Virus record (IMG/VR): IMGVR_UViG_3300045920_000109
Location: 1-26,545 of that record
Direction: 5' to 3' (one strand)
DNA length: 26,545 nucleotides
From: a virus
Shown here piece by piece: positions 9,875 through 20,767 of the stretch (position 1 is the first letter of the stretch; every line of letters begins with the position of its first letter). Position numbers and translations under genes: made by a program. The notes beneath the pieces are model-generated. The model saw nothing but the letters and a program-made list of their open reading frames with translations, was not told where the DNA came from and made no database searches.

Positions 9875-10098
9875 CGGCGTCCCTCGTGGTTGAACAGGTC
9901 GACGAGCGCCTCGGCGCGGGGATCCTCGTACTGCCAGGAGATATCGCGGATGAGCCGCTCGATGAGTTGGGCCTCGAGCTCGCGGGCGTCGCCGAACTCG
10001 CCGGCGGTCCACAGGTGCTTGATCGACTCGGTCAGCTTCCAATACTCGGCGGCTTCGTAGATGTATTCCTCGGCGGGCTTGAGCTTCGCCTTGGTCAC
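9871..10098 (-). CDS. Small hypothetical helical protein
   Basis: A 75-residue soluble, acidic/helical protein (KPAEEYIYEAAEYWKLTESI). The GTG start at 10098 overlaps the upstream stop as GTGA. No motif. Confidence 0.6.
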   Translation of the reverse strand: MTKAKLKPAEEYIYEAAEYWKLTESIKHLWTAGEFGDARELEAQLIERLIRDISWQYEDPRAEALVDLFNHEGRR

Positions 10099-10259
10099 GC
10101 CGCCTCCAGCAGGGCTCGACGCAGCGCCCGGACGATCTGGGTGGGCTCCATGCCCTTCAGGTCAGGAGCGAGCGCAGCAAAGGTCGAGGACAGGGCCTGG
10201 TAGCACGTCCAGCATCGGCGGTGCTCGATGAGCGGGTCGTGGTCGGGGGAGTGGGTCAT
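10095..10259 (-). CDS. Small CxxC protein
   Basis: A 54-residue protein beginning MTHSPDHDPLIEHRRCWTCY. The HRRCWTC block could be half of a zinc site. The rest is a short amphipathic helix region ending LRRALLEAA. ATG at 10259 overlaps the upstream TGA as ATGA, and its TGA overlaps the next GTG as GTGA, so it fills an otherwise empty 160-base gap in a tight operon. Family unknown. Confidence 0.65.
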   Translation of the reverse strand: MTHSPDHDPLIEHRRCWTCYQALSSTFAALAPDLKGMEPTQIVRALRRALLEAA

Positions 10260-15865: not shown

Positions 15866-17074
15866 TCAGGCGAGGATCGCGGTCGAGTCCAGAAGGCCGT
15901 AGGTCGCGTCGTCTAAGATGCCGGCCTGAACCACTAGACCTGGGGCCACCGCGAGCGTTACGGTCCAGGTCCCATCCCGACCGATCTCATGGGAGATGCC
16001 CTCGATGGAGGACGTCTGCTCGGTGTCGGTGCGAGACTCCACCACCACGACGATGTCCGTGAGGTCCCTGGTGAGCACACGGTCCCAGAAGTCATGTTGC
16101 ATCGCGTTGTCGACGATGGACTCGAGACGCAAGACGGGGTTGGCGTAGCGTTGGACCTGGGTCTCCGCTCGCGTGAGCACGGCGCCGTCGCTCGAGAGCT
16201 GGATGTCCAGGTCCGATGAGGAGCGGATGCCGAAATCCGCCTGCGACTGGAGGTCGACCGCGGTCTGTTCGGCCCCTCCCATCCGGGTCATGTGGACGTC
16301 GTTCAGGATCAGGTCGTCGTTGCAGACGATCGAGATGTCCCGGTAACTCATCCCCGACCCGTCATCGGCCCAGCGTCTCGTCGAGAGGTCCGGGTTGACC
16401 TCCACATCCTCGCGGAAGACCGCCTTGCCGTCCTTGCCGATGAAGAACCTCCCGCCCTCGGCGTGGGCGATCTCCTGGATGTGCTCAAGGGCCGGGTCGT
16501 TGTCCAGCGTCACCGCGGGAACCGTTGCCACACCGACGTCGATGTCCCGCTCGGTCTCGGGCCACATCACGGCGTCCAGGATGGCGTCGATCCGTGCTCC
16601 TGAACCTTGCTCGGCGAACTCGCCGGAGACGAAGGCACGGGCGAGCATCGTGAACCCATCGACGAGGGAAACCGTGACCTCGGTGTCGAGGTCACCAGGG
16701 AAGACGACCGGCCAGGACTCCACGAAGCCGGTGAAGACGGGGTAATCGACAGCAGACCAGGTCCCCGTGATCCGCATCCGGCGCATCGGCAGGATGTTCG
16801 GGTAGTACGCCCCGGAGACATAGAACGGGGTGAAGCGTCCGTCCCGGTTGTCCAGGATAACGGTCGCCGTGCCGGCCTCGATCCGCTCGAGCTCGCGCTG
16901 AGCCCCTCGTCCCGTGGACGCTCCTCGGACGAACTCCGTGATGTCCGTCTCGAAATCGGCCACCAGCGGACCGAGGACCGCCGAGTCGAGCTGAGCGTTC
17001 TCGTCGTTGTCGAGCTGGGCTCCCTGGGTGAGGCTGCCGGTCTCGAACTCAACGAGCAGCGTCGGCGTGGTCAT
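15866..17074 (-). CDS. Distal / minor tail protein
   Basis: A 402-residue protein placed immediately after the tape measure, where siphoviruses encode the distal tail or baseplate hub protein. Residues ~40-115 hold the motif DITEFVRGAS, GTATVILDNRDGRFTPF and RRMRITGTW, which is characteristic of minor tail proteins of actinophages. Later parts are mixed alpha/beta (FIGKDGKAVFREDVE). It probably caps the tail tube and anchors fibres. ATG at 17074 overlaps the tape-measure stop as ATGA. Confidence 0.8.
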   Translation of the reverse strand: MTTPTLLVEFETGSLTQGAQLDNDENAQLDSAVLGPLVADFETDITEFVRGASTGRGAQRELERIEAGTATVILDNRDGRFTPFYVSGAYYPNILPMRRMRITGTWSAVDYPVFTGFVESWPVVFPGDLDTEVTVSLVDGFTMLARAFVSGEFAEQGSGARIDAILDAVMWPETERDIDVGVATVPAVTLDNDPALEHIQEIAHAEGGRFFIGKDGKAVFREDVEVNPDLSTRRWADDGSGMSYRDISIVCNDDLILNDVHMTRMGGAEQTAVDLQSQADFGIRSSSDLDIQLSSDGAVLTRAETQVQRYANPVLRLESIVDNAMQHDFWDRVLTRDLTDIVVVVESRTDTEQTSSIEGISHEIGRDGTWTVTLAVAPGLVVQAGILDDATYGLLDSTAILA

Positions 17075-18783
17075 ATGCCGGAGGTAACGTTGCGGTTCTG
17101 AAGCTTGCGGAGCTCGTCGCGTGTGATCCGGGCGAAGGTCTGACCATTGACCTGCAGGACGATGTCGCCGTTGATCCCGCCGCCGAACCCCATCTCGTTG
17201 TTCACACCGGAGAACACCTCACCCTTGTGGACCATCGCCAGGCCGGTCTTGTGGACGACGCCGCCGTGCTGGAACCTCGGCCTGGGTCCTTCTCCCGGAG
17301 GCGGGGCTCCCTGGAACACGGCGCTGTAGGTGGTGGTGACGTGCTCTGGCACTCGGTTGATCTGGGTGATGTATTCCTTGATGCGAGCGATTAGGTCGTC
17401 GACCTGGCCCCTAGAGATGCCGAGCTCGCGGCCCATGTCCCGGAGCTTGCCGATGATGTCACCCTGCTTCTGGCCGGCGTCTGCCAGCTCCTTGCCGTAG
17501 TTGAAGACCGCTTCCTCGAGGCTGATCTGAGCGGTGAGCGCATCCAGGACGGCTTCCTCGTAAGCCTTGGTGTCGGTCTTGCCTTCGCGCTCCAGGCGGT
17601 TGAGTTCGCGCTGGGCTTCGGATAGGTCGCGTGACGCCAGCTCGATCGCCAGGAATGAGTCGGTGGCCGCGAGGATGACCAGGTTCTGCTCGCGCTGGGC
17701 TTCGGTCAGACGCTCGGTGGCGCGGGTGAGGTCGTCGGTCGCTCCAGTCGTGTCCTCGGTAGAACCACGAAGGTCTGGGAGCGTTCCACGAGCTCGGCGT
17801 TCCTCGGCCACTGTCAGCGCGGCGATCTTGGTCTGGAGTTCCTCGTCGATCGTGATGACGTCACCAGAGGCATCGGACAGGGCCTGGAGGGCTTCCTGGA
17901 GTTGAACGGCCGTGATGGTGCCGTTCTGCCACTCGGTGACCAGGACCTTGGTCTGTGCCGCGACCTCCTCCAGGCTGGGGCCGGTTAGGTTCAGGAACCC
18001 ACCGATCTGCTCCAGGCCCTTGAGGAAGTCGGTGAGCGTCTCGACGGCGAACGAACCGACGGTCTCCTGGAGATCCTCGAACGTGTTCTTGAGTTCCTGG
18101 AGTTTCCCGGCGAACGTGTCGCCGGCTGCCTCGGCGGCACCGCCGAACTCCTTGGTCAGCTCGCGGAGGATCACCTTCTGGGCGCCCATCAGGTCGCCGG
18201 ATTCGACCAGGGATTGGATCGTCTCGCGCTGGGACTCGTTGAAGGACACACCAACTCGCCGCAGCGCGGTCATGCCGGTGATCGGGTCGTTCAGCGCCTT
18301 GCCGAGCGCGAGCGTTGCCGACTTGAGTTCCTCGGAGGAGGGGATGGCTCCCTGGTTGAGCGCCGTCGCCATGTCCAGGATCGCGCCCTGGGCCTGGTTG
18401 AAGATGTCGTTGCCCTTGCCCACCTCGTTGCGGACCTCGCGGAACGTCAACAGCAGGTTCGATGACGCCTGGATCGCCTCGTCGTCGATCGAGGTGAGCT
18501 CGCGGAGACGTGAGGCGAGGTTGGTGATGTCCTCAGCCGTGAGATTCGCGGCGCCGCCCGTCGACTTCAGGACGGCCTCGGTTTGCGCCATGACCTGTTC
18601 CTGCTCGGAGAACGCCTTGATGGAGGAGACGGCGAACCCCACGATGGCGGCGCCGGCGGCCAACATCGCCGTCTGAGCGACAGCACCGAACCTGGAGATG
18701 CCGGTCTGCGACTGGGTCAGGCTCGCGTTCAACGGAGTGGTGTTGCCTATGACGTCTACGACGAGTGTGGCGATGGTTGCGAT
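17071..18783 (-). CDS. Tail tape measure protein
   Basis: A 570-residue helical protein that sets tail length and may aid DNA entry. It has a hydrophobic stretch near residues 33-54 (MLAAGAAIVGFAVSSI), a long Ala/Gln/Glu-rich coiled-coil body, and a C-terminal segment (GDIVLQVNGQTFARITRDEL) like that of other tape measures. The first ordinary start, TTG at 18732, would lose the conserved opening. Reading back, ATC at 18783 gives MATIATLVVDVIGNTTPL, the usual start of these proteins, with GGAGG seven bases upstream. I therefore place the start at this ATC. It overlaps the GT chaperone stop. At 570 residues it predicts a short tail, near 85-90 nm at the usual 0.15 nm per residue. Confidence 0.85.
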   Translation of the reverse strand: MATIATLVVDVIGNTTPLNASLTQSQTGISRFGAVAQTAMLAAGAAIVGFAVSSIKAFSEQEQVMAQTEAVLKSTGGAANLTAEDITNLASRLRELTSIDDEAIQASSNLLLTFREVRNEVGKGNDIFNQAQGAILDMATALNQGAIPSSEELKSATLALGKALNDPITGMTALRRVGVSFNESQRETIQSLVESGDLMGAQKVILRELTKEFGGAAEAAGDTFAGKLQELKNTFEDLQETVGSFAVETLTDFLKGLEQIGGFLNLTGPSLEEVAAQTKVLVTEWQNGTITAVQLQEALQALSDASGDVITIDEELQTKIAALTVAEERRARGTLPDLRGSTEDTTGATDDLTRATERLTEAQREQNLVILAATDSFLAIELASRDLSEAQRELNRLEREGKTDTKAYEEAVLDALTAQISLEEAVFNYGKELADAGQKQGDIIGKLRDMGRELGISRGQVDDLIARIKEYITQINRVPEHVTTTYSAVFQGAPPPGEGPRPRFQHGGVVHKTGLAMVHKGEVFSGVNNEMGFGGGINGDIVLQVNGQTFARITRDELRKLQNRNVTSGI

Positions 18784-19441
18784 GCGGCAGCCTCCAGTGC
18801 CATGCCGAGCATGGCTGCGGACTGTTCCTCGGACGGGGGCTTACCGTCCCAGGTGAACAGGAAGTCGCGGAACCGGGCCGGACGGCCCTCGATCTTGGTG
18901 CCGTGGCTCGCGGCGGTGACGTAGGCGACGAGGGCTGCGGCGGCGTCGATCCGTTCGCCGAGAAGCAGGGGGCCTTCGACGCGTTCGAACGCCGCCCACT
19001 CCATCAGTTGCTGGTGGGTTATCTGACGCTCGAGGTCGGAGGGCAGGACGCCCAGCGCGAGGGCTACTCGGAAGAGCTGCCGTCTAGCTGGGCTGGCTCG
19101 AAAACCGCCGCCAGTTCCTCCACGTCCTGGTCGGCCACACCGCACAGCCTGCGGGCGACGTCGTAGAGCTTGGCGACGATCCCAGCGTCCAGGGAGGACA
19201 CCTCGGCCTCGGTGAACGATGAGCCGTCCTCGTCGGTGAGGCATTGCGCCACCAGGCGGGAGCGGAACGTGCCGTCGATCGGCTTGGGCTTCAGGGTGCC
19301 GTCCGCGCTCTGATCGAACAGGCTGCGCTCGTAGGTGCCGTACTCCCCCGCCGACAGACCGCGCATGAGCACCTTCCCGCCGGCGACCTCGACGGCCTCC
19401 TCGGTCGGCGCAAGCTCGAGGATCTCCTTCTTGCTGAGCAC
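18756..19441 (-). CDS. Tail assembly chaperone GT (by -1 frameshift)
   Basis: Predicted fusion of about 228 residues made when ribosomes shift -1 near the end of the G gene. The second frame (about 19100 to 18756) encodes RVALALGVLPSDLERQITHQ and then a MEWAAFERVEG block, matching the T-type C-terminal chaperone domain of siphoviruses. It has no credible start of its own. The likely slip is at GGTTTTC (19106-19100), where GTT TTC re-pairs as GGT TTT. GT proteins bind the tape measure and recruit tube protein during assembly. The T part ends inside the tape-measure start region. Confidence 0.75.
19064..19441 (-). CDS. Tail assembly chaperone G
   Basis: A 125-residue protein, MLSKKEILELAPTEEAVEVA at the start, with a mostly helical second half (SSLDAGIVAKLYDVARRLC). 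It lies between the tube protein and the tape measure, the fixed place of the lambda gpG-type chaperone. GTG at 19441 follows AAGGAGG by five bases. It ends SSSE at a TAG in the overlap with the T frame. It would be the majority product of this locus, with GT made at a low rate. Confidence 0.8.
   Translation of the reverse strand: MLSKKEILELAPTEEAVEVAGGKVLMRGLSAGEYGTYERSLFDQSADGTLKPKPIDGTFRSRLVAQCLTDEDGSSFTEAEVSSLDAGIVAKLYDVARRLCGVADQDVEELAAVFEPAQLDGSSSE
19100..19106 (-). other. Candidate -1 ribosomal slippery site
   Basis: Minus-strand heptamer GGTTTTC. In the G frame it is read as GTT TTC; slipping back one base gives GGT TTT. The A-site re-pairing is perfect (Phe to Phe), the P-site re-pairing imperfect. 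About 35 bases remain before the G stop. Other positions in the overlap are possible. Confidence 0.45.
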
Positions 19442-20428: not shown

Positions 20429-20767
20429 CTATCCGATCGCGGCCTTGTAGACCGCTGCCATCGCCGCTATCACTCCTGGAGTGGCGGCGGCTGCTGCTTC
20501 GCTCATGTACCGCTGGGCGGCCATGAACCGGGTGCCGTATTCGGGGAACCTCGCGTAGTCCACCGTCGGACCGACCTGACAATCATCGCCGTCGAGCTGG
20601 ACCGTGATCGAGCTCGCCAGAGCGCCGGTAGCCCTCGGTGCGGTGGCCTGTGCCGCTCGCTGTACTACGACCCCGCCGGCTCGCGCCGCGATCGGGGTGG
20701 CAACCTTGGCCCGGACCTTCTGAGCCTCGAACGCCGCTATCGCCTGGGGGACGCCGTGAACGGTTAT
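20429..20767 (-). CDS. HK97 gp10-like tail component
   Basis: A 112-residue protein like the HK97 gp10 family, which joins head and tail in siphoviruses. It has an N-terminal helix (VHGVPQAIAAFEAQKVRAKV), an ATAPRATGALASSI stretch, and the typical TVDYARFPEYGTRFMAAQRY block. No ATG, GTG or TTG lies near the expected start. The only fit is ATA at 20767, overlapping the upstream TAA as ATAA and giving MTVHGVPQ. An upstream start would require a long shadow. An unseen sequence error is also possible. Confidence 0.7.
   Translation of the reverse strand: MTVHGVPQAIAAFEAQKVRAKVATPIAARAGGVVVQRAAQATAPRATGALASSITVQLDGDDCQVGPTVDYARFPEYGTRFMAAQRYMSEAAAAATPGVIAAMAAVYKAAIG

Follow-up and report, generated by a model that had tools for sequence, protein, structure and literature searches.

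ATC as the apparent start codon of the tape measure gene in a soil phage and its relatives

Genes and features at the tape measure junction

The window, meaning the whole stretch of DNA that was analysed, is IMG/VR virus record IMGVR_UViG_3300045920_000109, which has 26,545 nt and is described as a soil phage. The gene of the tape measure protein (TMP) is located directly after the G and T tail assembly chaperone frames (Table 1) and matches a second profile, phrog_26084 (E 5e-14), in the profile search. The T frame is a lambda T-type chaperone by profile and ends with the stop codon TAG at 18758-18756. Near its N-terminus T lacks a start codon; as in lambda, its frame is -1 relative to G, and it is probably reached by a -1 frameshift from G. 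By eye, no classic slippery heptamer could be made out where G ends (window positions 18756-19441, minus strand). The TMP frame, in turn, is -1 relative to T. The lambda-type chaperones share this arrangement, in which G and T immediately precede TMP and T is read -1 relative to G, but unlike in that system the TMP gene of the window starts inside the end of T. No tRNA genes were found in the window.

From stop to stop, the TMP frame covers 17071-18840, with 19 codons open upstream of the ATC. The sequence-only reading had claimed that no ATG, GTG or TTG gives the conserved N-terminus of TMP, and examination of the whole open stretch confirmed that none of these codons is present upstream of the TTG at 18732. 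The ATC that it had proposed at 18783, with GGAGG seven bases upstream, agrees with the letters of the minus strand, where the junction reads GCACT GGAGG CTGCCGC ATC GCA ACC ATC GCC ACA CTC GTC. After GCACT-GGAGG-CTGCCGC-ATC, the TMP sequence is GCAACCATCGCCACACTCGTCGTAGAC (minus strand, at the end of T). All other structural genes of the window that were checked start with ATG, GTG or TTG, mostly behind GGAGG-like Shine-Dalgarno (SD) sequences, except for the gp10-like gene.

Table 1. Positions of the features discussed, in window coordinates unless another contig is named
Feature	Position	Strand	Evidence or remark
TMP gene, 570 aa read from ATC	17071..18783	minus	phrog_27166 (E 2.4e-31), translation, TMP relatives
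ATC start codon of TMP	18781..18783	minus	relatives and substitution patterns
GGAGG SD, 7 nt before ATC, within T	18791..18795	minus	invariant in L082, L085 and L090
TTG, first standard codon of the TMP frame (codon 18), rejected	18730..18732	minus	no SD; CTG/CTC in relatives
T/TMP overlap, 28 nt, two coding frames	18756..18783	minus	T synonymous change 0.00
T-type chaperone frame (conserved part and stop)	18756..19061	minus	PF06223 (E 8e-12); phrog_337
G-type tail assembly chaperone, GTG start with GGAGG	19064..19441	minus	conserved, precedes T
gp10-like head-tail gene, N-terminus begins ATA (20767-20765)	20429..20767	minus	aligned with ATG/GTG of relatives
T-TMP insert	L092 5242-5478; L122 from about 3297 to TMP start		small gene on reverse strand

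The start site in relatives

Further members of the group were obtained by pattern scans of IMG/VR; among INPHARED phages, only distant TMP relatives were found. L082, L085 and L090, three additional diverged phages from IMG/VR, share the SD-ATC junction within the T/TMP overlap; it reads GGAGGCYGCCGC-ATC-GCAACCATYGCCACACTCG there, with diverged flanks. The N-terminal 600 nt of L087 are identical to those of L085. The identity between the window and L085 is 66% for T and 45% for TMP, and the TMP ATC appears to be as old as the split between these two phages, unless it was moved by recombination. The aligned start codon is ATG in L004 and L060 (MPTISTLVV) and GTG in L126 (VPTIADLVV). The alignment of close relatives that the sequence-only reading had named as a check thus returned both ATC and standard starts at the same position.

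In L092 and L122, an insert of approximately 230 to 270 nt with a small reverse-strand gene separates T from TMP, and L123 is the same there. The ends of the insert are similar in L092 and L122; the enclosed genes differ, being zinc-ribbon-like and starting MQELPAAP... in L092 and MQELPPPPKQ... in L122. No intron or other RNA family was found with Rfam in these two phages. The old ATC site survives in both solely as T coding sequence, and TMP begins at ACG, again without a standard start. The contexts of the ACG are TAA GGC GGT GGA TCA CTT ACG GCC ACT ATA and TGA CTG ACG GCC ACA ATA, and the CTG immediately before the ACG is an alternative start in L122. Every third base differs between TMP codons 2-6 of L092 and the remnant upstream of the insert, a recoding that looks as if it served to escape a target-site nuclease. 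In Microbacterium phage Burritobowl (L169), too, a small gene is located on the reverse strand between the tail assembly chaperone and the tape measure (9985-10254), and it is absent from Softsoap. The chaperone/tape measure junction looks like a recurrent insertion site.

TMP codons 2-9 showed zero amino acid changes in all pairs of six phages, at a synonymous difference of 0.78 to 0.91 between the ATC phages and the insert phages L092 and L122. Between L090 and L092, pS was 0.60 and pN 0.013 for TMP codons 10-45, though in both phages standard codons begin only at number 59. These values point to strong protein-level selection on TMP codons 2-45. The synonymous differences in T among the four ATC phages were 0.53 to 0.64 just upstream of the overlap and 0.00 within it; for the same stretch compared with L122, from which TMP has moved away, the difference was 0.54 to 0.65. 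These substitution patterns indicate that the T and TMP frames are both coding from the ATC on and that TMP translation begins no later than codon 2. The serine of T at the ATC site is also kept in L092 and L122, where the overlap with TMP is gone, indicating that part of the ATC conservation could stem from T. Comparison of RNA folds around the TMP start revealed no common structure.

An ATC start was also detected in the TMP gene of an unrelated second lineage. The TMP of L003 (the same contig as L161) starts GAGGAGGGCAGTCCC-ATC-GCC with an SD, and the corresponding codon is GTG in L137 (66% identical) and L002. No report of an ATC-started tape measure was found in the literature searched.

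Non-standard starts in other genes

A comparison of orthologs first showed ATC at the head protease start of L085 and L090. IMG/VR was scanned for protease starts of the xPWHIE head protease family with the pattern SD-NTN-CCN-TGG-CAY-ATH-GAR, and the start codons were GTG (12), ATC (7), ATG (6) and TTG (3), with no other NTN codon in homologs. One further match, with ATA, is an ORF that is no protease homolog. The ATC starts, which are six sequences once repeats are removed, belong to L085, L090, L175, L177, L178, L184 and L185, all with a GGAGG-type SD and an in-frame stop one or two codons upstream. In the protease tree, the ATC sequences L085, L177, L184 and L185 form a clade of 642- to 647-aa ORFs with 100/100 support. 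The scan for protease and major head profiles covered L085 and L185 of this four-member clade, and both ORFs match the head maturation protease and, over almost the full ORF, the major head protein. The all-ATC clade is accordingly read from its profiles as encoding a protease fused to the major capsid protein, a product needed in bulk. The ATC label requires at least three changes on the tree; the protease ATC could conceivably have a single origin.

Readthrough of the stop codon from the portal gene into the protease was rejected for L085, L177 and L185, in which the same-frame ORF before the stop has 22, 9 and 61 aa, respectively. For L090, L175/L178 and L184, the frame permits such readthrough, which may occur. 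The scan of portal starts returned ATG, GTG and TTG alone, indicating that AUC is not used in every gene.

Start codons were also scanned across 32 contigs or contig pieces of this kind, and a non-standard start was kept if its SD matched in six or more bases and two or more orthologs supported it. Those retained were only ATC (7) and ACG (1). These counts, like those of the protease starts, were drawn from metagenomic contigs in a single collection and do not represent independent samples. The remaining automatic matches were discarded for absence of an SD, a single supporting ortholog, position at a contig edge or being shadow frames. In the ortholog comparison, the L003 group gave one case, its ATC tape measure. 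In control phage pairs (Gordonia and Microbacterium), no credible non-standard start was found among about 52 mapped genes.

On the minus strand of the L092 contig (L156), a distal gene encoding TADNVTIDNG starts with ACG after GGAGG. An ATT two codons before the ACG is an alternative, and L082 and the L122 contig have ATG. The gp10-like gene of the window begins ATA ACC GTT, and the ATA overlaps the TAA stop of the adaptor gene (ATAA). Its start is ATG in L082, L085 and L090 and GTG in the L122 contig, and its own frame contains no standard start until 20563. This gene seems to start with ATA; the case is confined to one contig and may be a sequencing error.

Initiation at AUC and its alternatives

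TMP is very probably translated from the AUC at 18783 by SD-driven initiation, in phages whose host tolerates AUC. Three points rest directly on the sequence comparison: a conserved SD-ATC site, a TMP frame translated from codon 2 and the recurrence of ATC in a second gene. The GGAGG inside the end of T would position the 30S subunit of the ribosome, and the initiator tRNA would pair with AUC as a near-cognate start with a third-base mismatch, inserting fMet. The Met would then probably be removed, since Ala follows, and a peptide starting ATIATLVVDVIG, or its fMet form, would be expected of TMP. Host ribosomes would have to accept AUC behind a strong SD; the recurrence of AUC in the protease and the protease-capsid ORF makes a permissive host the likeliest background. 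Searches for prophage relatives in bacterial genomes gave nothing useful for the host.

The ATC may be trapped by the 28-nt overlap with T. An NTG start would force Trp (TGG) in place of the conserved Ser (TCG) of T, because the next base of TMP is G. ATA at the TMP start would create a stop in T, and ATC keeps the T Ser.

Among bacteria, near-cognate start codons are reported for Deinococcus deserti. In reporters tested in Mycobacterium smegmatis, initiation at ATC with an SD is weak but exceeds background, and near-cognate AUU serves as a start in mycobacterial reporters (PMC4633059). The window resembles such bacterial near-cognate starts in its SD-led initiation at a codon one base off AUG, but differs in that AUC is found at two structural genes within a phage clade and has been retained as the phages diverged. 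What counts against the AUC reading is that AUC is a weak start in the bacteria tested and fits oddly with the protease-capsid ORF, and also that two sister phages use ACG, not ATC.

The sequence-only reading had combined the start site with a purpose, namely that rare AUC could keep tape measure levels low; the site is well supported, the purpose is not. TMP is needed in few copies, a point counted in favour of such a purpose, as is the weakness of AUC in the reporters. Related phages, however, start the protease and the protease-capsid ORF with AUC, and its use on the protease-capsid ORF argues against AUC mainly keeping tape measure levels low. Relatives also start TMP with ATG or GTG, and the TMP of mycobacteriophage Corndog is not obviously reduced despite a non-standard start (PMC4351075). 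Reduced TMP expression through AUC is possible by analogy with the reporters (PMC4633059), but as the purpose of the codon it is improbable.

Alternatively, T and TMP could be fused by a -1 ribosomal frameshift in the overlap, with the ATC as an internal Ile codon. TMP does lie -1 relative to T, both frames are coding in the overlap, and a -1 shift from G into T is common in tailed phages in this gene region (PMC5009743). However, inspection of the conserved junction by eye showed no X-XXY-YYZ heptamer, relatives carry ATG or GTG at the same position, and TMP also lacks a standard start in L092 and L122, where T stops over 200 nt ahead of it. The frameshift would also leave the ATC protease starts of L085, L177 and L185 unexplained. 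Frameshifting from T to TMP is judged unlikely in the window itself, and the fusion has a low probability as an explanation of the ATC.

The TTG at 18732, which no other standard codon precedes in the TMP frame, could be the true start, or a later standard codon could be, with the upstream segment untranslated. As the sequence-only reading had stated, this TTG has no ribosome site and cuts off the conserved opening. The codon at its position is CTG or CTC in L090, L092 and L082, whose first standard TMP codons are numbers 59, 59 and 47 (18 in L085), and codons 2-45 are those under protein-level selection. Together with the ATC relatives and the aligned ATG or GTG of L004, L060 and L126, the substitution patterns upheld the ATC over the TTG, and a start at codon 18 or later is very improbable. 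An ATG turned into ATC by recent mutation, or by a mistake in sequencing or assembly, would need one base change in a single metagenomic contig, but this has next to no probability and is refuted for TMP, because the diverged phages from other metagenome sets also carry ATC.

Initiation at AUC has consequences for annotation. The usual gene-start rule fails here, and gene callers limited to ATG, GTG and TTG lose the conserved N-terminus of TMP and would also shorten the protease-capsid ORFs. In a soil phage clade, a start codon believed to be nearly unused in bacteria would be conserved at two structural genes, which makes the host-dependent stringency of start codon selection directly testable. 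The range of start codons tolerated by the host's ribosomes may be wider than expected. It is conceivable, though we hold this only tentatively, that this soil phage clade, and hence its host, uses AUC as an ordinary fourth start codon. If so, AUC would start the tape measure in one lineage and, at high output, the protease-major capsid ORF in another; the host initiation machinery would have relaxed start selection, and mis-annotated gene starts would be widespread in the host and its phages.

The window would also provide an AUC counterpart to the ACG case of Corndog. The TMP genes of the Cluster O mycobacteriophages Corndog, Firecracker and YungJamal lack ATG, GTG and TTG starts; in Corndog and Firecracker, an HNH gene lies between the chaperone and tmp, and ACG is found in place of ATG (PMC4351075). 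The most N-terminal TMP peptide of Corndog begins right after the ACG, and the authors of that study leave both ACG initiation and ribosome bypassing as explanations (PMC4351075). The sequences of Firecracker and Catdawg were also checked. Like this group, the window has a TMP without a standard start, an odd codon at the position of a relative's ATG and Ala as the second residue. L092 and L122 are especially similar, as both the gene inserted between chaperone and TMP and the ACG start are found in them; neither is found in the window. Unlike Corndog, the window combines ATC with a good SD and an overlap of TMP with T, and it lacks the insert; its start is read from sequence, whereas that of Corndog is backed by peptides.
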